DNA of 53,022 bases, taken from the IMG/VR virus record IMGVR_UViG_3300026551_000003, positions 1 to 53,022 of that record; one strand, given 5' to 3'. Below the pieces are notes generated by a model that was not told the origin of the DNA, ran no database searches, and was given only the letters and a program-made list of their open reading frames with translations. Within the stretch, counting starts at the first letter, position 1. The number at the start of each line of letters is the position of its first letter. The position numbers and the translations under genes were made by a program. This document shows positions 10,333 through 22,563 of the stretch, piece by piece. The stretch is from a virus.

Positions 10333-11202
10333 ATGACAGTACTAGTACCAGACGTAAGTGAGTTCCAGTCGCCTGCGTCAGGCAACGCACCAAACTGGTC
10401 GTTGATTAAGGATCAGAACGGAGGAGCTGCGATCATTCGCGTCGGGTATGGTAACGACCATCTCGACAGGATGCTCGTGTCGAACCGATCAACGATCAAG
10501 TCGCTCAACTACACGTTCTGCGGTCTCTACCAATACCTGCGAGCGGATCAAGATCCAGTTACGCAAGCAGGCATGTTCATCAACTGGATCGGACCAGATC
10601 TCAACAAGGGCGAGATTCCTATACTCGACCTGGAGGAGGGATCAGGAAATCAGTCACTACGAGCTGAGATCTGGTTCGGTATTATCGATGCCTTCTACGG
10701 GCTCGATCAGCTTCCACTCAACCAACGGTCGTGGCTGTACAGCTACGCAGTGTTCGTTAGCGATCACAACCTCGGTGGCATCTTCGCATCTCCAAGGCGA
10801 ACGTGGATCGCTGCATACCAGTCCACGGAGCCGACGATCGGACATACGCTCTGGCAGAGCACCGACGGACAGTTCGGCGTTAACGTCGTCAGCTGGAGTG
10901 GATGTGGAAGAGTCGACACGTCGATCTACCACGGCGACCTTCCAACCCTAGGAGCGATGGGCTGGCAACCTACTAGCCCTACTCCTACTCTGCCAACTAC
11001 ATCTAAGAAAGAGGTAGACATGCTTCACATCAAAGTCACCGCACCCGCCGGCCACGTCTGGACGGGAACGCGTACGTTCCTCTGGTCACCAGGGTCGGCA
11101 CCCTCGCACATCATCGACGGTGCTACGGAAGGTGCAGTCGAAGCAGTCATGGCCGCTGTCGTCGTGTCGTGGGGTCAGTACCTGGCCTGGGGCGGATCCT
11201 GA
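10333..11202 (+). CDS. Endolysin, GH25 muramidase
   Basis: This 289-residue lysozyme-type enzyme would cleave the MurNAc-GlcNAc bond of peptidoglycan at the end of infection. The start ATG 10333 has an AAGGAGG site. The N-terminus has the GH25 signature PDVSEFQ (residues 6-12), catalytic acidic residues in DLEEG near residue 98, and the later barrel motifs WIAAYQST and LWQSTDGQFG. After a Pro/Thr linker (about residues 215-226) comes a C-terminal domain of about 60 residues with no recognised motif, presumably a cell-wall binding module. Lack of a signal peptide implies holin-dependent export. Confidence 0.9.
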   Translation: MTVLVPDVSEFQSPASGNAPNWSLIKDQNGGAAIIRVGYGNDHLDRMLVSNRSTIKSLNYTFCGLYQYLRADQDPVTQAGMFINWIGPDLNKGEIPILDLEEGSGNQSLRAEIWFGIIDAFYGLDQLPLNQRSWLYSYAVFVSDHNLGGIFASPRRTWIAAYQSTEPTIGHTLWQSTDGQFGVNVVSWSGCGRVDTSIYHGDLPTLGAMGWQPTSPTPTLPTTSKKEVDMLHIKVTAPAGHVWTGTRTFLWSPGSAPSHIIDGATEGAVEAVMAAVVVSWGQYLAWGGS

Positions 11203-13088: not shown

Positions 13089-13391
13089 TCAATCCCTTCT
13101 AGAGTCTGTAGGCCAAATCACTACGTCCGAGTCGCTACGCATTGCCTTCTCGTAGACGCGTCGGACTAGCTCGTCGTCCTGTGGGATGTCGTTCATAGTC
13201 TTCTTCTTGTCGCCTGTACTCCTTGCTATTTCTTCTTCGCTGTACATTCCGGTGCTGCGGAGCCATGTAGCTACTACCTCAGGGGGTGCCTTCGGACATA
13301 CGTGACCTTGATCAGCTTCACGAGCTCCGCAGTCCTCAGTGCAGTTACATAGACCACGTGTGCCTTGGCAGTAGCCGCAGTTGTAGTTCAT
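13089..13391 (-). CDS. Small zinc-binding protein
   Basis: The 100-residue protein begins at ATG 13391, overlapping the polymerase stop by four bases (ATGA). The N-terminus is Cys-rich (CGYCQG, then C-N-C, ED-CG and a later HVC), enough for one or two zinc sites. The rest is acidic and helical (PQDDELVRRVYEKAM). Coupling to the polymerase suggests a replication accessory role, but no family is recognised. Confidence 0.65.
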   Translation of the reverse strand: MNYNCGYCQGTRGLCNCTEDCGAREADQGHVCPKAPPEVVATWLRSTGMYSEEEIARSTGDKKKTMNDIPQDDELVRRVYEKAMRSDSDVVIWPTDSRRD

Positions 13392-15757
13392 AGCTGTCCC
13401 CAATCTGTTCCTACGGTTATGTCGACGTCGATGTTGACGTAGTCTCCGACGACTTGCTGTCCGGACTTGATCATGTAGTAGCGAAGTATGTCTGCTACCT
13501 TGTCTACGTTGTCCTTATGACACTCTGCTAGGAGGCTGTCGTGAACGATGTTACGTATCTGCGCGATGCCCTTGAGTGCAGGCCGGATCCAGGTAAATGC
13601 CTGCAGACAGATGTCCGAAGCTGTCGACTGAGGTTTGAAGGCAAGAGCCTCGTTCAGGATCTCGTGTTTATTCTCCTTCGTAATCAACCAGAAGCGACGA
13701 TGCCTACCGAACACTGTCGTGAGGTCTTCTCCAGCTAGGACAGCCTTCCTTGTCTGTTCCCTGAACTCAACGATGTTCGGGATGACGCTGAAGAACGCAC
13801 GCATGCCTCGTTGTGCTTCGGTTAGTGGCAGGTCGTATTCCTCAGCAATGCTTTTCGCTTCACGTCCATATCCGAGACCGTAAAAGTAGGCCTTGACGCG
13901 AATACGTAGTTCCTTCATCTGATACTTGTCGAGGTGACTCGTATCTCCATATAGTACCGGGGTTAGTTCGTCGAACAGGTCGCGATCGGGATCGTTGAAG
14001 ATGTCGCGTAGGTAGTCTTCCTTTGCCAACCAAGTCAGGATGCGTGCTTCGATTTGCTTGTAGTCAGCGTTGACGAAGACATTGCCAGGATGTACAGGTA
14101 CGAACTGCTTGCGAAGACGTGGCCCTCGCGTGATGTTCTGTAGGTTCGGGTTACGACAAGAAGGACGACCAGTCGTGGTCCCATGCAGAAGAAAGGTTGG
14201 GAACACACGACCCTTGTAGACGCGCTGACGTATACCCTTGACATAGGTGCCATACGACTTCGCATCCAATCTGTGCTCGGCAAGGGCTCCGAGGAAGTCG
14301 TAGTACTCTCCCCAGGGCTCCTTGCATCGTTCGATGAGTGCAGCGATGACTTCCTTGTCAGTGCAAGGTCGCCATTCACCCTGCTGGTTCCTCTTCTTCG
14401 GTACCGTAATGCCGAAGTGATCTTGGAGTACTTTGACTATTTGCAGAGGTGAGTTAGGATTGAATTCGGGCCTGCGAGAGGTGACTTGCATATCGTGTCG
14501 AAGAATTCGAAGTCGCTCGAGGTAGTAAGCAGCTAGCTCGTCGTTGTACTTGAGGTCGACACCGATACCGTTCAGCTCGACGTACATGATCTCGTTCGAT
14601 ACGCGAACTAGGAAGTCATGTAGCGCACGAAGACCAGGCTCCTTCGTCATCATTTGCGTGAATAGTTCATGCAGTGCATAAGTTGCTGCACAGTCATATG
14701 CGTTGTACTGGTACAGTACATCTCGAGGAATAGCTCCGTAGCCCTTGCCTGGAGCTAGGTATCGTTTGATGTCGTCATCGTATCTCGGCACACCGAGTAG
14801 TTCCACGGCGAGGTACTTGAGGCCATGAATTCCTCGTCGCTCGTCGAGGCAGTACGAAGCCAGCATGGTATCGAACCATAGACGTACAGCCCCGATGCGA
14901 TGGTAGAGCCCTTCAAGATCGAACTTGCCGTTCTGAGCAATGATTCGATTATGAGAACGCAGGTACTCTCCGAGTCGTGACATGACAGTAGTGTCATTAG
15001 ACGCGTTCTCGCCGAACACACAAACCTTTCCGGGTGCGTATCCGATTCCCACACAGAGAAGATGATGGCGCGAGGAGTGTTCGAAGGAGACGTCTTTGTC
15101 GATGTCACTTTCAATGTCAACTGTGACGGGGCTGCTTGGCAACTCTTCGATAGCTCGCAGCGCCATACCACGTTCGTCCACGACAAGGACCTGAGGCTCT
15201 GTCCACTCACTTGACGTCCTTAGAAGCTTGCCGAAGTCGTTTACGATCGAGGGGAAGAAGGAGTCGCCTTTCGGTCGGAGACAGGCTGCGGGATGGAACG
15301 TCGGTATGACTTGAAGTCCAAGCTCCGGTACTTCTCGTGGCGGTCCGACGCGGAGCTTCGTGATACCATCTTTAGCTCCCAAGATCGATCGTGCGGCCGA
15401 GTTACCCATAGCCACAGCCGTAGTGACTCCGCGGTCTTGTAGCTCCTGAATGAGACGGGGCCGACAGCAATGTATCGCGTTCGCACTGGGCGTTGCGTTG
15501 TCCGGAGGGCGACATAGGCAAGCATTTGTGAGAAGGGTGGCCTTGCGGTCGATGTGGTAGTGCTGGAGGATCTTGTCGAGGAGCTTACCACTGACCCCCA
15601 CAAAAGGGTGTCCCAGGCGTGCTTCGTTAGCACCAGGCGCCTCGCCCACCACAGCGAGAGTCGCTCGCGGCGGTCCATCTGAGGGAACGAACCGTCCAAT
15701 GTCATACAGATCACAGTCCTCGCAAAGTGCATCCGGATGCTTCCTAGGCTTGTCCAC
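13388..15757 (-). CDS. Fused uracil-DNA glycosylase / 3'-5' exonuclease / family A DNA polymerase
   Basis: This 789-residue replicative polymerase has three parts. Residues 1-180 resemble an iron-sulfur family 4 uracil-DNA glycosylase: Cys12/Cys15, VVGEAPGANEARLGHPF (37-52), further Cys near 80-98, and HPAACLR (155-161). Residues 205-365 are a DnaQ-like exonuclease: DIE at 214-216, NGKFDLEG near Asp280, and YNAYDC near Asp355. Residues about 385-789 are the PolA domain: motif A ADYKQIEARI (Asp565), motif B with Lys622 and YGLGYG, and motif C IVHDS (739-741), where the usual HDE Glu is Ser. Start GTG 15757 follows GGAGGTG and overlaps the dpdA stop. Confidence 0.92.
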   Translation of the reverse strand: MDKPRKHPDALCEDCDLYDIGRFVPSDGPPRATLAVVGEAPGANEARLGHPFVGVSGKLLDKILQHYHIDRKATLLTNACLCRPPDNATPSANAIHCCRPRLIQELQDRGVTTAVAMGNSAARSILGAKDGITKLRVGPPREVPELGLQVIPTFHPAACLRPKGDSFFPSIVNDFGKLLRTSSEWTEPQVLVVDERGMALRAIEELPSSPVTVDIESDIDKDVSFEHSSRHHLLCVGIGYAPGKVCVFGENASNDTTVMSRLGEYLRSHNRIIAQNGKFDLEGLYHRIGAVRLWFDTMLASYCLDERRGIHGLKYLAVELLGVPRYDDDIKRYLAPGKGYGAIPRDVLYQYNAYDCAATYALHELFTQMMTKEPGLRALHDFLVRVSNEIMYVELNGIGVDLKYNDELAAYYLERLRILRHDMQVTSRRPEFNPNSPLQIVKVLQDHFGITVPKKRNQQGEWRPCTDKEVIAALIERCKEPWGEYYDFLGALAEHRLDAKSYGTYVKGIRQRVYKGRVFPTFLLHGTTTGRPSCRNPNLQNITRGPRLRKQFVPVHPGNVFVNADYKQIEARILTWLAKEDYLRDIFNDPDRDLFDELTPVLYGDTSHLDKYQMKELRIRVKAYFYGLGYGREAKSIAEEYDLPLTEAQRGMRAFFSVIPNIVEFREQTRKAVLAGEDLTTVFGRHRRFWLITKENKHEILNEALAFKPQSTASDICLQAFTWIRPALKGIAQIRNIVHDSLLAECHKDNVDKVADILRYYMIKSGQQVVGDYVNIDVDITVGTDWGQL

Positions 15758-16529
15758 TCGCCCACCTCCACAGGGTCTCGGTGTTTTGCTGAACTAGCTC
15801 AGTGTTAAGCGAGCGGGCGTCGAGGCTGAAGTAGTTGTCAGGACGCCTAGGGCCTCTTACGTTTGTATCGATATGTATGTCGTACGCTGCGTAGACGAAT
15901 GGAGCTGACGTATCGACACTGTTGATGTTCGGGTAGCTAGACGCTTGAATGATTTCCTTAGGCCACGCGTAGGACAGGCCAAGGAGGTGGATCGGATGAG
16001 GAGCATGCTCCTCAATGTACAAGGCCGTTTTAAGTCTGATGTGCGTGTCGATCTCTTCTGATAGCCACTTGGGGAGCCCGAGAATAATGGTCTGCTCGAA
16101 CTCTTCTTCCAGCTCGAGATACTTCTTAACGCATCTCCTGAGCTGGCTCTCGTCAGCACCTTGTACGACGCCCATGAACTGTATGGGCTTAGCGGTCTCG
16201 GCAACAGCGTGGTGCATCTCCCAGATGTGCATGAAGTCGCGCGACGTCTGGATGGTTTTATCCAGATCACCCATATGATCCGGCAGAACCAGGATATCTG
16301 CATCTACCTCGTACACCATCTGAATGAGTGTCTCGTGACTAAGAGGCTTACTACCCTCCGCTTCGAAGGCGCCGTTGTCCAGCATGATCGCTACGCCATC
16401 CCTCATTCCCAGGACCTTGTAGAAGTTCCTGTAGACTGGCCCTTTCAGGCCTTCTGGAATGACCATGTGCAGAGGCTGGTCTACGATCTGGTGCAGCAGG
16501 CTCGTAGGTGGAATAAGTGCTACTTTCAT
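15744..16529 (-). CDS. dpdA: DpdA-type DNA 7-deazaguanine transglycosylase (TGT superfamily)
   Basis: The 261-residue enzyme would exchange guanine in DNA for a 7-deazaguanine base (preQ0). It has the TGT barrel landmarks: a catalytic-type Asp51 in MLDNGAFE, DILVLPDHMGD (78-88), the substrate-loop motif FMGVVQG (118-124, compare GIVQG in tRNA enzymes), and NSVDTSAPF with Asp206, where TGT enzymes carry the nucleophile. Zinc ligands of tRNA-modifying TGTs are absent, as in phage DpdA. ATG 16529 has TAGGAGACACG upstream. It shares an operon with folE, queD, queE and queC, which supply its substrate. Assignment rests on motifs and context. Confidence 0.88.
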   Translation of the reverse strand: MKVALIPPTSLLHQIVDQPLHMVIPEGLKGPVYRNFYKVLGMRDGVAIMLDNGAFEAEGSKPLSHETLIQMVYEVDADILVLPDHMGDLDKTIQTSRDFMHIWEMHHAVAETAKPIQFMGVVQGADESQLRRCVKKYLELEEEFEQTIILGLPKWLSEEIDTHIRLKTALYIEEHAPHPIHLLGLSYAWPKEIIQASSYPNINSVDTSAPFVYAAYDIHIDTNVRGPRRPDNYFSLDARSLNTELVQQNTETLWRWASGQA

Positions 16530-16644
16530 CGTGTCTCCTAAACCAGTGTCGTCGGTACTTGGTTAGAGCCTTCTTGCCTCTACGCTTCCAGCGACATACT
16601 GGACAACGGATGTCCTTCTTTCTAGTGCGCAGCGGGGGCTTCAC
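16351..16644 (-). CDS. Possible zinc-finger miniprotein overlapping dpdA
   Basis: An open frame from GTG 16644 fills the 92-base gap before dpdA. Its first 45 residues look real: basic, with CPVCRWKRRGKKALTKYRRH followed by WFRRHDE, a C2H2-like finger. From about residue 46 it runs through dpdA in a second frame and loses protein-like composition, so the true 3' end is uncertain; a frame error may hide an earlier stop. No strong ribosome site is seen. It overlaps the upstream gene by 23 bases. Confidence 0.35.
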   Translation of the reverse strand: MKPPLRTRKKDIRCPVCRWKRRGKKALTKYRRHWFRRHDESSTYSTYEPAAPDRRPASAHGHSRRPERASLQELLQGPGNEGWRSDHAGQRRLRSGG

Positions 16645-16873
16645 CGTCTGCGATCTTCGCTCGCACTGCACAGTCCTTGGCTTCGATCAAGCGTGTGATC
16701 ATGTGCGCGACCTGCAGGTCGTTGCTCTTAATGAGGTGCAGCATATTCGCTGCGACGTCTTCGAACGGCCGTGCAACTACTTGCAGATGCAGAGGAAGAT
16801 GTGAGCAGTCGAGCCACCGGACCGCATCGATGACTGCACGGTGACGACCTTCGAGTAGGGACTTGTCGATCAT
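16622..16873 (-). CDS. Small helical protein, possible Acb2/Tad1-type hairpin
   Basis: The 83-residue protein starts at ATG 16873, overlapping the previous stop (ATGA) with CTGGAGG upstream. The second half reads PLHLQVVARPFEDVAANML, then a short turn, then VAHMITRLIEAKDCAVRAK. That is a helical hairpin ending in the 'T/R-x-L-x-E-A-K-x-x-A-V-R-A' pattern I associate with Acb2/Tad1 hairpin proteins, phage sponges that sequester CBASS or Thoeris nucleotide signals. The resemblance is by eye and tentative. The location in an anti-restriction operon is consistent. Otherwise a hypothetical protein. Confidence 0.6.
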   Translation of the reverse strand: MIDKSLLEGRHRAVIDAVRWLDCSHLPLHLQVVARPFEDVAANMLHLIKSNDLQVAHMITRLIEAKDCAVRAKIADGEAPAAH

Positions 16874-17424
16874 GACATTGCCTCCAGGGTAACGTGGTAG
16901 TTGTTGTTGATGATGAAGTTGGTCCAGTCGGCTGGCTCACACATGCGCTCGTCGCCTGGCGTGGGACGGTTCCAACCTACTATCGCGTACAGGTAGTCCC
17001 AGTACGAGGAACACACTACCTCGCCAGGGACGAGACCATGCGGCCAGGTCAGGTGGAAGAGCTTGACGTGAAGGGCTTCTAGAGTGTCTCCCCCGATAGC
17101 TTCCCAGTCGTATTTCGTACCGAGCATCTTCTGCGCGTCAGAAGCGACGAGGTAGCGCTGCGGATCAGTCCTGTTGGGCTGATTGCAGTTATTCCAGGCC
17201 ATCGGGTGGCCGATGTAGCTGCGCATGTCTACCCAGCCGACGCCTCCAGGCTTGCCCTCGAGTCCCCACGGAATGTCTCCATCCCAGTGGTGCATACCTG
17301 CGACGTGGTTATCGAGGTTCGGTTTGCCCTGTAGGGCTTCGCCGAGCTGGATGGCTTCCGCGGAGTCGCCTGAGGTGCGAATGACGAATACGTCACCGGG
17401 CTTGAGGATGCTCTTGGCCTGCAT
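16870..17424 (-). CDS. Papain-like NlpC/P60 (YiiX-type) cysteine hydrolase candidate
   Basis: This 184-residue protein has ATG 17424 with AAGGAG seven bases upstream. The layout resembles permuted papain-like YiiX/NlpC enzymes: an N-terminal ILKPGDVFVIRT segment, a His near residue 45 in NHVAGMHHWDG, then GTKYDWEAIGGDTL and a candidate catalytic Cys in GEVVCSSYWDYLYAIVGW (near residue 138). Such enzymes cleave amide bonds in peptidoglycan, lipids or proteins. It lies in the nucleotide-modification operon rather than with lysis genes, so wall lysis is unlikely to be its job. The substrate cannot be read from sequence. Confidence 0.65.
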   Translation of the reverse strand: MQAKSILKPGDVFVIRTSGDSAEAIQLGEALQGKPNLDNHVAGMHHWDGDIPWGLEGKPGGVGWVDMRSYIGHPMAWNNCNQPNRTDPQRYLVASDAQKMLGTKYDWEAIGGDTLEALHVKLFHLTWPHGLVPGEVVCSSYWDYLYAIVGWNRPTPGDERMCEPADWTNFIINNNYHVTLEAMS

Positions 17425-17719
17425 TGAATAGCTCCTTCAGTGGAATGAACCCCTGAGCGTCTGCTGCGGGATGTCTGTTACTGTGCTTGGTAGCTGCACG
17501 CTTTAGCAGGTACAGCTTGATGAAGGTGAAGCGTGCGTAGTTGGCAAGGTCGAGAACCTCCTGCATTGCCTCTTCGAGTGTGTCGGTGCTGAGAAACGCC
17601 ATCTCGCCGTACTTCTCCTGGCCCTTGGCGAGTCGCTCTTGGCAACGAGCGACGAACTCCTCGTCAGCCTTCTGCAGTAGTTCTGCCAAATCGCTCGACA
17701 TTGTGTGCTCGTTTGACAC
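17393..17719 (-). CDS. MazG-like all-alpha protein (second of a tandem pair)
   Basis: The 108-residue protein is read from GTG 17719, though ATG 17701 is possible; neither has a convincing ribosome site, which suggests coupling to, or fusion with, the upstream MazG frame. The core, RLAKGQEKYGEMAF followed by TLEEAMQEVLDLANYARF, matches the K-x-x-K-Y-G and E-E-x-x-E-x-x-D-x-x-N-Y pattern of MazG-like/DUF5664 nucleotide pyrophosphohydrolases of phages. The acidic residues could bind magnesium. It probably hydrolyses a non-canonical or competing (d)NTP. It overlaps the NlpC-like gene by 32 bases. Confidence 0.65.
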   Translation of the reverse strand: MSNEHTMSSDLAELLQKADEEFVARCQERLAKGQEKYGEMAFLSTDTLEEAMQEVLDLANYARFTFIKLYLLKRAATKHSNRHPAADAQGFIPLKELFNAGQEHPQAR

Positions 17720-17946
17720 GGTAAGATGTTGATGAGGTAGATAAAGGAGTCGATTGCCTCCTCTTCAACCAAGGTCTTGAGCGCCATGGCATCGTGCGTG
17801 CCTCGTATGATCTTCTTGACGAGGTTGGCTAGCTCACCAACTTCCCCTGCGAGAGCTAGGGTGAGGAAGCCCATGTCGTAGTACAGCTCGGGGAACCACT
17901 CCTTGGTGTCCTCGATGCATTGTTTCTGGATCTCTTCGAGTGTCAT
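17503..17946 (-). CDS. MazG-type nucleotide pyrophosphohydrolase, C-terminus disrupted
   Basis: From ATG 17946 (overlapping the folE stop as ATGA) the first 70 residues carry a MazG core: LEEIQKQCIEDTKEWFP, LALAGEVGELANLVKKI (E-x-x-E-L) and LVEEEAIDSFIYLINIL (E-x-x-D). After about residue 71 the frame continues to 17503 as Arg/Ser-rich text that is a shadow of the next gene, and the expected last MazG helix is missing. Either the gene is truncated, or a frameshift near 17725 joins it to the following frame. It may clean nucleotide pools around preQ0 synthesis. Confidence 0.6.
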   Translation of the reverse strand: MTLEEIQKQCIEDTKEWFPELYYDMGFLTLALAGEVGELANLVKKIIRGTHDAMALKTLVEEEAIDSFIYLINILPCQTSTQCRAIWQNYCRRLTRSSSLVAKSDSPRARRSTARWRFSAPTHSKRQCRRFSTLPTTHASPSSSCTC

Positions 17947-18506
17947 TTGCCTATCGCTCTCATGTACTCGTCCTTGGCTGTTCGCTCGTGCATTCCGAAA
18001 ACTCCACGCATAGTAGCGGTGTACGTCGTCGTCCCTGGAGCTTGCACTCCCCTGATTGTCATGCATAGATGCTCACACTCCATGACTACCGCTACATCGT
18101 CCGTCTCGAGATGCTTCTGCAAACGGTCCGCTATGTCACAGGTCAGCTCCTCCTGCACACATAGCGCACGAGCACAGTTCTGAACCAGCCTCGGTATCTT
18201 CGAAAGGCCTACAACTCTGTCCTGTGGAATGTACCCTACGTGGGCGAACCCGCGGAAGGGAACGACGTGATGAGCGCAGAGGCTAACGACAGGAATCTGC
18301 TTGACAACGACCATGTCTCGATTCTTGGTCGGGAACGTGGTGAAGTTGAAAGGGATCGGAGTCGTCATCTCCTTGAGCATCTGAACAAAGCGCTCCGGTG
18401 TACGTTTCGAGTGAGGACTGTGCATGTCCATACCCGCGATGTCCGTAAGCAGCCTCGCTGCTAGGTCGCTCATGTTCAGCTCTACTTGACTGAGATCAAG
18501 TACCAC
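17943..18506 (-). CDS. folE: GTP cyclohydrolase I
   Basis: The 187-residue enzyme converts GTP to dihydroneopterin triphosphate, the first step of the preQ0 pathway. Signature residues are visible: HSKRTPERFV, VVSLCAHHVVPF with the zinc Cys and two His (about residues 75-84), FRGFAHVGYIP, VVGLSKIPRLV and ECEHLCM with the last zinc Cys. Length matches type IA enzymes. GTG 18506 overlaps queE by 11 bases; an internal ATG at 18473 is an alternative start. It is embedded between queE and mazG with overlapping ends, so it is dedicated to the phage pathway rather than folate synthesis. Confidence 0.95.
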   Translation of the reverse strand: MVLDLSQVELNMSDLAARLLTDIAGMDMHSPHSKRTPERFVQMLKEMTTPIPFNFTTFPTKNRDMVVVKQIPVVSLCAHHVVPFRGFAHVGYIPQDRVVGLSKIPRLVQNCARALCVQEELTCDIADRLQKHLETDDVAVVMECEHLCMTIRGVQAPGTTTYTATMRGVFGMHERTAKDEYMRAIGK

Positions 18507-19215
18507 GAGTTTGCGCTCCGTAGATGAAGTTGTGTACCTGGATGTTGAGTCGCCAAGACACCTTGTGCTTCTTGATTAGGTCGACGATGTCCGTTGCGCC
18601 CCAGGCTCCTGGCTTGTCCCATACAGGACCAGCGAACACCTGGACGCCTGAGTCTTGAACGAGCGCCTCCCATACCTGAAGAGCGACGTTGAAGTCCTCC
18701 TCGTTGGCGATCGTGAACTTAACTGTACCCACACCGAAGTTAGACATGCGACGTAGGTTGCGTGAACGCTGTACTAGCCAGGTCGGCTCGCCTGAGCCTG
18801 GCAGCTTCCAGTCCATAACAGGCTCGAGACCGAGGTCGAAGAGCTTTTCGGGGATCTCGAGCGTCCCGTTGGTAAAGGCTTCCCAGTGCGCCTCCTCGTC
18901 GCGCATTAGTCGCACTGTCTCCAGAAGTGCATCGTTGTTCTGGAGGAAGGGTTCGCCACCAGTGAAGCAGACGTTAGTAGCGCCTGTCAGCTGACGGTGC
19001 TGCTTGATCTGAGCGACGAGCTCCTTAGGCCAGAATGGCTTCTGCTCCTCTCGGTACAGTTTCGGATCGATCGCGAACTGCGAGTCACATGGCCACAGTG
19101 CGCACTTCAGGTTGCAGCCGGCGAATCGTACGAACTGGGTCAGGTAGCCGACGCGAGGACCTTCTCCCTGAGTCGATACGTAGTGTTCGACTATACGGAG
19201 CGGTGTGCTTGCCAT
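18496..19215 (-). CDS. queE: 7-carboxy-7-deazaguanine synthase, radical SAM enzyme
   Basis: The 239-residue enzyme ring-contracts 6-carboxy-tetrahydropterin to 7-carboxy-7-deazaguanine. ATG 19215 follows GGAGTGAG and overlaps the queD stop (TGATG). TQGEGP (15-20) is the family's N-terminal motif. The iron-sulfur ligands are Cys34, Cys38 and Cys43 (CNLKCALWPCDS), a Cx3Cx4C spacing instead of Cx3Cx2C. CFTGGEPFLQ is the SAM-binding GGE motif. Adjacent queD and queC place it second to last in preQ0 synthesis. Confidence 0.93.
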   Translation of the reverse strand: MASTPLRIVEHYVSTQGEGPRVGYLTQFVRFAGCNLKCALWPCDSQFAIDPKLYREEQKPFWPKELVAQIKQHRQLTGATNVCFTGGEPFLQNNDALLETVRLMRDEEAHWEAFTNGTLEIPEKLFDLGLEPVMDWKLPGSGEPTWLVQRSRNLRRMSNFGVGTVKFTIANEEDFNVALQVWEALVQDSGVQVFAGPVWDKPGAWGATDIVDLIKKHKVSWRLNIQVHNFIYGAQTRGT

Positions 19216-19604
19216 CAGCTCACTCCGGCGTAGGTCGCCCACGTCTTCGGTGTCTCCGAGACGTAAATCACGAGTTCGTAGTTCTCGTGCTCCTCTCGGA
19301 TCTCTTCATCGAGTGCTACCTTGGCTCGATCCCAGAGCCACTTGGCAATGTTCTCGGCGGTTGGGTTGACGTTGAGTACGTCGTTCAGGCATCGGTGATC
19401 GAGCATGGTATCGAGTGCCGTCTTGAAGCCGTCGAGCTTGTTGTAGTCGAATACGAAGCCGACTTCGTCCACGTCGTTTGTAACGATCTCGAGCCTGATC
19501 GTGTAGTTGTGTCCATGTAGCCGAGCGCACGGGTGCGTTGGAGATAGGCCCCGCAGGTAGTGAGCTGCGGAGAGGGCGAACTCCTTCGAGATGGAGTAGG
19601 TCAT
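19215..19604 (-). CDS. queD: 6-carboxy-5,6,7,8-tetrahydropterin synthase
   Basis: The 129-residue enzyme of the PTPS family turns dihydroneopterin triphosphate into 6-carboxy-tetrahydropterin. Zinc ligands are His15 (SAAHYL), His30 and His32 (CARLHGHNY), with catalytic Cys26. GFVFDYNKL and LDHRCLND are conserved PTPS segments. It starts at ATG 19604, overlapping the upstream small gene's stop by four bases, and ends overlapping queE. Coupled translation should keep the enzymes in balance. Confidence 0.95.
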   Translation of the reverse strand: MTYSISKEFALSAAHYLRGLSPTHPCARLHGHNYTIRLEIVTNDVDEVGFVFDYNKLDGFKTALDTMLDHRCLNDVLNVNPTAENIAKWLWDRAKVALDEEIREEHENYELVIYVSETPKTWATYAGVS

Positions 19605-19729
19605 TTCTTTCCTCCCAGAGCCCGACGTAGCATAGCAAGCATGAGTCGGTTGTTTCGGTTCTTTGCCTGCTTCGCTTGCCTTATCGGACTGTTGCGAATG
19701 CGCTTCTTCAAGCGCGTACGTCTGGTCAT
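19601..19729 (-). CDS. 42-residue basic protein embedded between queC and queD
   Basis: ATG 19729 overlaps the queC stop by four bases and TGA 19601-19603 overlaps the queD start by four bases. GGTGAAGG lies upstream as a ribosome site. The peptide is highly basic (starts MTRRTRLKKRIRN and ends RRALGGKK), with a helical Gln/Ala/Lys/Asn middle. Exact nesting in the modification operon argues for a real gene. It could bind nucleic acid and guide DpdA or replication proteins; that is speculation. No family recognised. Confidence 0.75.
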   Translation of the reverse strand: MTRRTRLKKRIRNSPIRQAKQAKNRNNRLMLAMLRRALGGKK

Positions 19730-20433
19730 ACCTTCACCTGCGACTTCCAGAAGCTGTTGTCCTCGTACTCGGTCTTGTCGTCGACCTTGGCGTCATGTAG
19801 AGCCTCGAGACGCTCGACGCAAGTACCACAGCGTCCGCAGTGAACCTTACCACCCTTGTAGCAGGACCAGGTAAGGTGTACAGGCACGTCGAGTCGCTTA
19901 GCCTCGCATGCGATGTCTGTCTTGGTCCAGTGAATGAACGGAAGCTCGAACTTCCAGTCCTGCTGAATGAAGCCCTCGTTTGCCCTGCGGATGACGTCCT
20001 CGAGTAGATGCCAGAACACAGGTCGGCAGTCGGGGTAGATGGCAGCGTCCCCGTTATGCGGAGCGGCAGCGACATAGTGGCCACCCTCTCCGATGCAGAT
20101 GCCTGCGGCGATGGAGGCCATGATCATGTTCCTGTTCGGAACGACTGTCGCCTTCATGGTGTCGGAGGCGTAGTGACCCTCTGGTACGTCGACGTCAGGG
20201 TTGATGAGTGACGAGTTAGAGTCTCGCATCTCGTTTCCGACGTCGATCAGATCGATCGCTTGCCAAGGAAGACCGAAACGCTCCGCTGCCTGGTTAGCGA
20301 AGTAGAGTTCCTTGGCATGGCGCTGAGCGTAGTTGAAGCTCAGAACGTGAGGCCTGTAGTTGTGCTTGACGAGATGGTACAGCATAGTAACGCTGTCGAG
20401 TCCACCACTGACGATTGCTACTCCATCGCTCAT
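19726..20433 (-). CDS. queC: 7-cyano-7-deazaguanine (preQ0) synthase
   Basis: The 235-residue ATP-dependent enzyme converts 7-carboxy-7-deazaguanine to preQ0. It carries the PP-loop SGGLDS (residues 9-14), the family segment VVPNRNMIM, and a C-terminal zinc knot with four Cys (SCYKGGKVHCGRCGTC). Length is normal and no amidotransferase domain is fused, so the product should be preQ0 itself. It overlaps the upstream primase-helicase remnant by four bases and the 42-residue gene downstream. Confidence 0.95.
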   Translation of the reverse strand: MSDGVAIVSGGLDSVTMLYHLVKHNYRPHVLSFNYAQRHAKELYFANQAAERFGLPWQAIDLIDVGNEMRDSNSSLINPDVDVPEGHYASDTMKATVVPNRNMIMASIAAGICIGEGGHYVAAAPHNGDAAIYPDCRPVFWHLLEDVIRRANEGFIQQDWKFELPFIHWTKTDIACEAKRLDVPVHLTWSCYKGGKVHCGRCGTCVERLEALHDAKVDDKTEYEDNSFWKSQVKV

Positions 20434-20915
20434 TCGTTCTTCTCCAAGAGTGAGTTGTACGTTGTTGCTCTTCCCTCGCCACCCTTGGCAATCAGGCCTC
20501 GGGCGATGAGAGTCTTCTCGATGTCATCCATCTCTCTTGCGGTGAGATGGTAGGTCTGCATCAGCTTGGAACGGGCGAAGCTCTTACGCTTCTGAATGGC
20601 ATGTAGGATCAGCTCAATCTTGTGCTCGAGTGGTCCCTTGCCAACGTTGATGATGATGTCCTGTGCGTACCTCCTCCATACGTCGCCGTAAGCTGCTGCT
20701 CGTATAATGTCGCTTTCCTCAACGACAACAGTGCCCTCGAGACATCTTGAAGCCGCTAGTAGTATTGCAGCCTTGAGAATATTGACTGCGAGACGTACGT
20801 ACATTGGAACCATTGTGTCTCGTAGCTCAACGCCACTGTCTACTGCCAACTGTGTCAGAGTCTGCTCGACTACGTTGTACCTGGCCCACGCGCGTTCTGT
20901 CATCTTAGCGTCCAC
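20430..20915 (-). CDS. C-terminal part of DUF3987-type primase-helicase (frame-separated)
   Basis: The 161-residue fragment can start at GTG 20915, but its frame is open further upstream to about 21080. There it reads AESDVNKVRPLGPPEEE, the continuation expected after the 'ESG' that ends the upstream frame. Segments such as RLAVNILKAAILLAASR and a final winged-helix-like region (ARSKLMQTYHLTAREMDDIE) match the C-terminal part of DUF3987 helicases. It is therefore probably one gene with 21061-22563, broken by a small deletion or frameshift. If expressed separately, it lacks its own clear ribosome site. Confidence 0.7.
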   Translation of the reverse strand: MDAKMTERAWARYNVVEQTLTQLAVDSGVELRDTMVPMYVRLAVNILKAAILLAASRCLEGTVVVEESDIIRAAAYGDVWRRYAQDIIINVGKGPLEHKIELILHAIQKRKSFARSKLMQTYHLTAREMDDIEKTLIARGLIAKGGEGRATTYNSLLEKNE

Positions 20916-21060
20916 AGGAGCTGATTGTACTCCTACGACTTTGCCTTTGAACGTGATGGCCTCGGTGTGTTCATGAGCCTTGCTTATGTCTCTGAGTTCT
21001 TCTAGTATCCGATCTCGGCCCGTGCGGTTCTCTTCTTCGGGTGGTCCGAGAGGCCTAACC

Positions 21061-22563
21061 TTATTGACATCGCTCTCTGCCGGACTCGATGTCCTCGGTC
21101 GTTACGATTCGTTGCATCTTCGACTTGATACCGCCTGCGAAGAGGACGAGTCGTGGATCCTTGATGACGATCTCTTCCTTGCGCAAGAGTCGCTTTTGCG
21201 TTCTACCGTCGTACAGCTTAGTCAGGAACTCCTTAAAGCCTGACATATAGTCCTTCTTGGCCATCTGATCCATGAAGCCCGTGAACTCGTCACGAAGGAA
21301 TAGGCTTGTTCTTCCCGGCCTCGTCGACAGAGCTGTCATGAAGCCTTCGATCGATCCGTCCGTCGCTAGCAGGAGGCTGTCGTCGATTTCCAGAACTAGG
21401 TCCATCGCTAGGTCCATCGCCGTCGACTTCCGTGTCAACGTCGTGTCTGCAAGTATCATGAACCAGAGGTTCGGACAGATTGAGCCGTACCGAGTAGGCA
21501 GTTTGACAGAACCAGCAAGTAGGGTCGACAATGCTATGAAGGCGCCTGCTTCGTGATACTGGATTGCTGCGTCGCCTACTGTCTTCGCCCATTCGACATA
21601 TCTCTCTACGAACGACGGTTCCTGATCTAGTGCCTTACGTTCAGCCTTCGTGACCAAGGCCAACTCAGTTCCAGGTGGTAGAGTGGCCATCTTCGCTTGT
21701 TCTGAATGACGTGCAGATGCTCTACATACGTCCTTCCAAAGGCGTATGAAGTTGTCCCCGAACTTGTTGCAAGCTGCATCCCGACAGACTTGGAATGCTT
21801 CCGATAGCTGAAGTCCAGCTTCCAGACAGTACATTTCCAACCTGAAGAGAGCGGAGCTACGATCTGTTTCTGGGGTCCTGTGGAACAGTGTGAATGCTGC
21901 ACCGTTAATGCGGTGCCTGTACCTTTCAAGGATCTCCTCCCCTCTCTCCGGCACGAACTCTGGAAACGGTATGTCTAGGTATTCGTATCCTGCAACTTGA
22001 TCGTAACGATGATGGAACTCCTCAAGGGGATATACGTCATCGTTCCAGACCAAGACTCGTACCTTAGGCGCCTCCGCTCCTTGTCCGTACTTATAATTTC
22101 GAGTACCAGGAATCCTGAGTAGCTGCGTGAGATCCCATCCGCTTCGATCACTACCCTCGCTGGAATGGTGGTATGCCACTCGCCGTGCAGCATCTTCAGC
22201 ATCTTCTGGGTCTGCTGGTCGGTCCAGAGTCCAAAGCGCCTGGTAGTGTCCAGGACTCGTTTCATAAGCAATCGAGGGTTGTATGAGTAGATTGTTGGGG
22301 TGACAGCTATCCAGGTCAGCCCAGATACAGCCAACCGGACCCACGTTTGACTTGACACGTCTCGTCTCCTTCAGGAGCTGAGGACAGAAGTACACGTTCT
22401 CTACGAGTGCTCGAGAGCGAACTAGCTTCTCCGCCATCTTTGCGTCGTCGGGGTACGAGAAGAACTGCTCAGTGAACTTGCCTTCAGGCCTACGAGTAGC
22501 AATGCAGATATAGCCAGTCGTGTCTCCGTATGCTGTTGCGAAGAAGTCTACCAACCCTGACAT
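21061..22563 (-). CDS. Primase-polymerase / DUF3987 helicase, N-terminal and ATPase part
   Basis: The 500-residue product starts at ATG 22563. Residues about 1-190 resemble a RepB/AEP prim-pol: CIWADLDSC (D-x-D), SPGHYQALW (S-x-H) and GWDLTQLLRIPGTRN. Residues about 300-500 carry a RecA-like helicase: a degenerate Walker A (ADTTLTRKSTA, Gly replaced by Arg) and Walker B-like SLFLRDEFTGF, then VLFAGGIKSKM. It stops abruptly after EDIESG at a frame break near 21075, where family members usually continue S-G-F-x-x-R-F. It would synthesise primers and unwind the fork. Whether the break is real or an assembly artefact is unknown. Confidence 0.8.
   Translation of the reverse strand: MSGLVDFFATAYGDTTGYICIATRRPEGKFTEQFFSYPDDAKMAEKLVRSRALVENVYFCPQLLKETRRVKSNVGPVGCIWADLDSCHPNNLLIQPSIAYETSPGHYQALWTLDRPADPEDAEDAARRVAYHHSSEGSDRSGWDLTQLLRIPGTRNYKYGQGAEAPKVRVLVWNDDVYPLEEFHHRYDQVAGYEYLDIPFPEFVPERGEEILERYRHRINGAAFTLFHRTPETDRSSALFRLEMYCLEAGLQLSEAFQVCRDAACNKFGDNFIRLWKDVCRASARHSEQAKMATLPPGTELALVTKAERKALDQEPSFVERYVEWAKTVGDAAIQYHEAGAFIALSTLLAGSVKLPTRYGSICPNLWFMILADTTLTRKSTAMDLAMDLVLEIDDSLLLATDGSIEGFMTALSTRPGRTSLFLRDEFTGFMDQMAKKDYMSGFKEFLTKLYDGRTQKRLLRKEEIVIKDPRLVLFAGGIKSKMQRIVTTEDIESGRERCQ

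Follow-up and report, generated by a model that had tools for sequence, protein, structure and literature searches.

In the Campylobacter phages CP220 and CPt10, 2′-deoxy-7-amido-7-deazaguanosine (dADG) replaces 100% of the deoxyguanosine (dG) (PMC8306585). In phage CAjan, dpdA is required for DNA modification, and 7-deazaguanines protect DNA; the characterised enzymes include DpdA1 of the 9g type and DpdA2 of the nt-1 type, the latter of which is missing His196 (PMC6884629). Here we describe a related locus in the virus record IMGVR_UViG_3300026551_000003 from IMG/VR, which was analysed over its whole length of 53,022 nucleotides (hereafter the window). The genes folE, queD, queE and queC and a gene for a 261-residue transglycosylase, here called dpdA, run in the same direction at positions 15744-20433 of the minus strand, directly ahead of a gene for a replicative polymerase. 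Family profiles place the transglycosylase in the branch of CP220 and apart from both DpdA1 and DpdA2.

Several cultured phages share parts of this locus. In CP220 and CPt10 (Firehammervirus; gp056 and the QueC gp114), DpdA falls in the branch of the window enzyme, and QueC, likewise unfused, shares its HxGD and SCYKGG motifs with that of the window. They differ in that dpdA and queC lie far apart, DpdA is only ~27% identical to that of the window, and the 177-kb genome carries contractile-tail genes, a family B polymerase and no MazG match. The arrangement in Bacillus phage BSP7 and Weizmannia phage Youna2 is much closer, with a primase, queC, queD, queE, folE, further genes, a dpdA-like gene and a PolA with a UDG-like N-terminus in that order. 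Together with BSTP5, BSTP8, BSTP10 and BSTP12, these phages have genomes of 53-55 kb and match the DpdA profile at E ~1e-39, but they lack mazG homologues in the interval, encode a P-loop, kinase-like protein ahead of dpdA and have the polymerase gene in two parts. Brevundimonas phages StAshley and MaInes (DpdA profile E ~1e-27) also have a queC-queD-queE-x-dpdA-polymerase block with a UDG domain; their genomes are larger, and the folE of StAshley is found several kb beyond the block, past ribonucleotide reductase genes. Flavobacterium phage immuto has a DpdA of the same branch but also encodes QueF. The better known phages 9g and CAjan follow the same logic of folE, queD, queE and queC combined with a DpdA, and their dpdA also lies beside replication genes. 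Their DpdA, however, is of the DpdA1 subfamily, 9g has a Gat-QueC fusion, and the QueC motifs of CAjan are canonical. In the cultured relatives dpdA is annotated as hypothetical (BSP7_057 in BSP7) or otherwise. No report of DNA chemistry was found for the Bacillus phages (BSP7 and BSTP5/8/10/12) or Youna2, and the Youna2 paper is silent on modification.

The locus is of an already known type. In the proposed pathway, FolE, QueD and QueE would convert GTP to 7-carboxy-7-deazaguanine (CDG), from which QueC would make 7-amido-7-deazaguanine (ADG) and/or 7-cyano-7-deazaguanine (preQ0). The 261-residue DpdA, which has the fold of a tRNA-guanine transglycosylase (TGT) and two aspartates, D51 and D206, would then cut guanine out of phage DNA after replication and put the 7-deazaguanine base in its place. 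The virion DNA would most likely contain dADG or 2′-deoxy-7-cyano-7-deazaguanosine (dPreQ0), probably at a high level and perhaps with near-complete replacement of guanine, and would thereby be protected against restriction endonucleases. By analogy with the DpdA work in PMC6884629, the base would be exchanged within DNA, which would thereby be shielded from restriction. The evidence strongly supports a DpdA-based system that places 7-deazaguanine in DNA, and we regard the proposal as a whole, including a CP220-type DpdA, high substitution and protection, as probable.

Operon organization and conservation

The operon is real, and the first-pass annotation, which had described it from the letters alone, placed it at the correct coordinates (Table 1). 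Transcription runs through queC, queD, queE, folE, a MazG gene, genes for proteins of 108, 184 and 83 residues, the dpdA-like gene and the polymerase gene. Tight overlap had also been claimed, and most junctions do overlap by 4-32 nt, with mazG1 extending 217 nt into the following gene and the polymerase gene overlapping dpdA by 14 nt; two intergenic gaps nevertheless occur, of 121 nt between queC and queD and of 92 nt between the 83-residue gene and dpdA. A scan of the operon for promoters and terminators gave no more sites than shuffled sequence.

Table 1. Coordinates and assignments of genes in and next to the operon (positions in the window)
Feature	Position	Strand	Basis or remark
Polymerase: family-4-type uracil-DNA glycosylase (UDG), 3′-5′ exonuclease, PolA	13388..15757	-	Pfam UDG 5.8e-26, exonuclease 1.3e-11, DNA_pol_A 4.8e-57
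dpdA, 261 aa, predicted DNA-guanine transglycosylase of the CP220/immuto/BSP7 branch	15744..16529	-	Family profiles and fold
83-aa accessory helical protein	16622..16873	-	PHROG_5120
184-aa accessory protein	16870..17424	-	Also in L017 and L005
108-aa conserved helical protein ("mazG2"), G..YG and E..D..NY	17393..17719	-	Kept in relatives' operons
mazG1, MazG-family pyrophosphohydrolase, GEVGE and EE..D motifs	17503..17946	-	Family profile against PDB dCTP pyrophosphatase 1, 2.3e-9
folE, 187 aa, GTP cyclohydrolase I	17943..18506	-	Pfam 2.9e-52
queE, 248 aa, radical-SAM	18496..19242	-	PHROG_2076 2.3e-28; NCBIfam TIGR03963 8.4e-33
queD, 129 aa, 6-carboxytetrahydropterin synthase type	19215..19604	-	Pfam PTPS 1.7e-28
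queC, 235 aa, no fused amidotransferase domain	19726..20433	-	Pfam PF06508 5.6e-49; motif alignment
RepB-primase/DUF3987 protein, upstream of queC	20430..22563	-	Pfam; two open reading frames, 21061-22563 and 20430-20915

All four enzymes of the preQ0 pathway are encoded. FolE, QueD and QueC score above their Pfam cut-offs, and QueE was identified through PHROGs and NCBIfam; against TIGR03367, QueD (6.6e-24) falls slightly below that model's cut-off. QueC has the PP-loop SGGLDS, HNGD...YPDCR, SCYKGG and the cysteine cluster CGRCGTC. The cluster motif of QueE, CNLKCALWPC (GCNLKCALWPCD), has the spacing CX3CX4C where CX3CX2C is usual. Most members of the clade share this spacing (36-46 of 62, by two patterns), and the cluster spacings in the QueE of phiSM and immuto are longer still.

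Relatives were collected with the polymerase and QueC as queries, and 80 of 227 QueC matches were kept. In at least 65 loci, the window included, queC and this dpdA lie upstream of the polymerase gene; three of these repeat contigs already counted, and at least about 61 IMG/VR contigs besides the window carry the arrangement. The core order in the clade is queC-queD-queE-folE-(mazG1)-(108-residue gene)-dpdA-polA, and since it is kept in some 60 other contigs it is not due to chance. Searches with DpdA were less productive: the window protein alone, being too divergent, gave no match in IMG/VR, and the DpdA of one relative gave none among bacterial genome contigs.

Among nine genes of the operon region that were compared, dpdA diverges fastest. 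At polymerase identities of 80-95% (mean 83%), it averages 53.5% identity, against 70-73% for queC, queE and folE. Because dpdA and the polymerase diverge in step (r 0.75), dpdA looks like a gene in fast descent rather than one that has been swapped between phages. Such divergence would be expected if a site preference were under selection and is unexplained if every guanine is replaced.

Some relatives carry further genes within the operon. Two loci (L044:11693-12259 and L045:4380-4946) encode a DUF6884 protein (1.8e-22) and a 292-residue protein between queC and queE, possibly additional base-modifying enzymes. A DJ-1/PfpI-family protein (1.5e-10) is encoded between queC and queD in two others (L062:12122-12784 and L059:11174-11818), and in L018 open reading frames resembling LAGLIDADG endonucleases occur twice in the que operon, at 10693-11118 and again after folE.

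The transglycosylase and its branch

The identification of the 261-residue protein rests on family profiles and fold, since as a single sequence it scores 18.7 bits with the Pfam TGT model, below the cut-off of 26.3; its E-value with the NCBIfam model of bacterial DpdA is 0.0015. The AlphaFold model (predicted local distance difference test, pLDDT, 95) is a TIM barrel of the TGT type. Foldseek ranks the DNA preQ0 insertase DpdA (7UI4) at the top (2.4e-6), with tRNA TGTs next, and VIA-align superposes the model on chains of the TGT family over ~230 residues with Z ~17. Membership of the TGT superfamily is thus certain as far as the predicted fold goes. In an alignment of 48 relatives, D51, N52, G53, E56, D84, R165, H181, G184, D206, P210 and N249 are invariant, and D51, D84, H181, G184 and D206 remain so across 48-59 sequences. 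D51, H181 and D206 align with D72, H196 and D215 of 9g (small DpdA1 profile; hhalign probability only 3.6%), a correspondence of H181 with H196 that shows superfamily kinship and not membership of DpdA1. The protein contains a single cysteine, and the zinc site of tRNA TGTs (CxCxxC plus a histidine) is absent.

The branch was assigned with a profile built from 59 clade sequences, among which no reference phage was included. This profile finds BSP7 (2.1e-39), Youna2 (8.4e-39), the DpdA of immuto (4.4e-28), StAshley (2.8e-27) and CP220 gp056 (8.2e-20). Scores of ~2 bits or less were obtained for 9g, CAjan, nt-1 DpdA2 (-1.0 bits), Dp-1, phiSM and E. coli TGT (-2.5 bits), and the 9g and CAjan enzymes stayed under the reporting limit at E 100. 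The loss of His196 that marks the nt-1 type is not seen either, the equivalent histidine being kept in the window protein. Because a reference-free profile recovers CP220 gp056, immuto and BSP7 and not 9g, CAjan or nt-1, the window enzyme is assigned by sequence to the CP220-type branch, and neither to DpdA1 nor to DpdA2. The earlier description of a DpdA-type enzyme is borne out, and the better profile match to a tRNA-modifying TGT that would have counted against it was not seen. The enzyme nevertheless falls outside the 9g/CAjan group.

Substrate, product and extent of the modification

That DNA is the substrate, and which base is inserted in what amount, we infer from the branch, the gene neighbourhood and the chemistry of relatives. 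Were the transglycosylase to act on tRNA instead, the operon would boost a queuosine- or archaeosine-like modification of host tRNA. The pathway chemistry would be the same, the fold is that of a TGT, and tRNA TGTs are among the best structural matches. Searched against PDB sequences, however, the family profile has 7UI4 ("DNA-guanine transglycosylase") as its sole TGT-family match (E 0.0045) and finds none of the many tRNA TGT chains in that database at E<=10; the tRNA TGT profiles PF01702 and TIGR00449 reach E 0.01 in 2 of 48 clade members. With the cysteine triad for zinc absent and dpdA adjoining the replicative polymerase gene throughout the clade, action on tRNA appears very improbable. 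As to the product, the first-pass annotation had reasoned that a QueC without a fused amidotransferase makes preQ0 the simplest outcome. The locus would then be a 9g/CAjan-like system in which dPreQ0 takes the place of only some guanines (~30%, the level in CAjan and Rosebush). The gene set is indeed that of group 2, comprising the preQ0 enzymes and DpdA with no amidotransferase, whose tested members have dPreQ0 at 28-32% of G (PMC6884629). QueF, ArcS and a Gat domain were likewise found in none of the 20 window proteins scanned, which cover the small open reading frames only in part. The deduction nevertheless fails for the CP220 branch, since the QueC of CP220, a plain protein of 219 residues, also lacks an amidotransferase domain and its dG is 100% dADG (PMC8306585). 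Given in addition a DpdA subfamily different from that of 9g and CAjan, partial dPreQ0 substitution seems rather unlikely here.

A serious candidate, which we hold tentatively, is that dADG takes the place of all or nearly all G, after the pattern of CP220 and CPt10. This reading draws on the shared DpdA branch, the chemistry of these two phages, the unfused QueC of CP220 and the motifs of QueC. HxGD...YPDCR and SCY occur in all 64 clade QueCs compared; CP220 has the similar HSGD...FPDCR and SCYKGG, whereas ETD[FY]SGYPDCR and TCYNG are found in E. coli and in CAjan, a dPreQ0 phage. This resemblance of the window to CP220 is a correlation only. QueC phylogeny was considered as proof of an ADG product and rejected, as the tree does not join the clade QueC with that of CP220, a separation that also counts against complete dADG replacement. 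So do the low DpdA identity to CP220, the QueF of immuto, the closest relative of CP220, by which products may vary within the branch, and the rapid divergence of dpdA, which could mean a changing site preference. On balance, dADG is somewhat more likely than dPreQ0 as the product.

Several points weigh against a DNA-modifying, CP220-type system as a whole. Judged from the model, a TGT fold by itself cannot tell a DNA from a tRNA substrate. Similarity to the characterised DpdA1 and DpdA2 enzymes is not significant, and the link to them runs through the fold and the CP220 branch. We presume that CP220 gp056 is the enzyme that carries out the modification in that phage, and that its branch is the one called DpdA3; work by Cui and colleagues in Nucleic Acids Research in 2023 reportedly gave the branch this name and linked it to complete replacement. 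In 2019 the Campylobacter phages were listed as lacking a DpdA (PMC6884629). Finally, reports of DNA chemistry were found for none of the clade members, and the virus is uncultured.

Polymerase, accessory genes and virus context

The replicative polymerase lies in the same operon, as had been noted. Across the clade, its PolA part is fused to a UDG domain with conserved cysteines at 12, 15, 82 and 98 and GEAPG and HPA motifs. A UDG-like domain ahead of PolA is also found in BSP7, Youna2 and StAshley, all of which have this DpdA branch, and not in immuto or CP220.

Two MazG-like proteins, a papain-like hydrolase and a possible nucleotide sponge had been proposed as further parts of the system. 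One genuine MazG is present, truncated in the window. Aligned with relatives, the window copy lacks the C-terminal ..KR.N..RF part and runs into the 108-residue gene; about 24 residues are missing, which suggests the loss of ~70 nt directly ahead of that gene. The Pfam MazG model matches six of seven members of the mazG1 family, the window copy being the exception. The second candidate, the 108-residue protein, finds no support as a MazG and matched no MazG profile or fold (model pLDDT only 73). The supposed papain-like protein of 184 residues gave chance-level matches only (E 0.15 and above) and no PHROG or phage match, and its gene is sporadic, occurring in the window and two relatives. The gene for the 83-residue protein, the supposed sponge, is present in six of the loci that carry queC and dpdA; at E<=10 the protein matched unrelated helical proteins and no chain of any solved sponge, such as those of the Acb2 type. 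Neither functional proposal has database support, and because both genes are sporadic among relatives they are passengers or accessories.

It has also been considered that MazG1 and the 108-residue protein act on the nucleotide pool as an integral part of the modification system. Both are kept in most clade operons, and pyrophosphohydrolase-type genes stand just ahead of dpdA in immuto (gp208, PRA-PH 3.1e-10) and between folE and dpdA in one relative (L056, PRA-PH). An integral role is nonetheless doubtful: mazG1 is truncated in the window and went undetected in three relatives (L001, L011 and L018), CP220 and StAshley gave no MazG match, and the 108-residue protein has no recognisable fold. 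A nucleotide-pool role beside the CP220-type DpdA branch is worth a test.

The RepB-primase/DUF3987 frame upstream of queC is broken near 21,070 (20915-21075) by an apparent deletion of ~29 nt after ...EDIESG, and the 161-residue open reading frame downstream of the break is the C-terminal part of the protein. In L001, L011 and L013 the frame is continuous. Either a replication gene is truly damaged here or the assembly is wrong.

The record appears to be a complete virus, with an exact direct repeat of 232 bp at both ends. Consistent with a siphovirus, it encodes a tape-measure-like protein of 1,484 residues and has open reading frames for a portal, a capsid and a large terminase. For terminase and capsid the nearest counterparts come from Arthrobacter, Gordonia, Microbacterium and Rhizobium phages (~30-36% identity), and megablast against phage records found no close DNA relatives of the window.

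Implications

The CP220-type DpdA branch is little studied and is known from Campylobacter phages that have all their guanine replaced. The present assignment takes this operon, along with the Bacillus and Brevundimonas isolates that share the block, out of the class with dPreQ0 at some sites and into the branch associated with total replacement of guanine. The DpdA of cultured phages of this branch, some of which grow on laboratory B. subtilis, turns out to be annotated as hypothetical or misnamed. Which base is made cannot be read off from the absence of a fused amidotransferase. The modified base probably serves, as in better studied phages, as armour against bacterial DNA-cutting defences. 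More speculatively, a widespread, unrecognised lineage of uncultured 50-55 kb siphoviruses may exchange all or almost all guanine in its DNA for a 7-deazaguanine base, by means of a CP220-type DpdA coupled to the replicative UDG-PolA gene; it would comprise about 60 contigs, with phages of Bacillus and Weizmannia as cultured relatives. If so, G-free DNA would be far commoner than present measurements, made on few phages, suggest.

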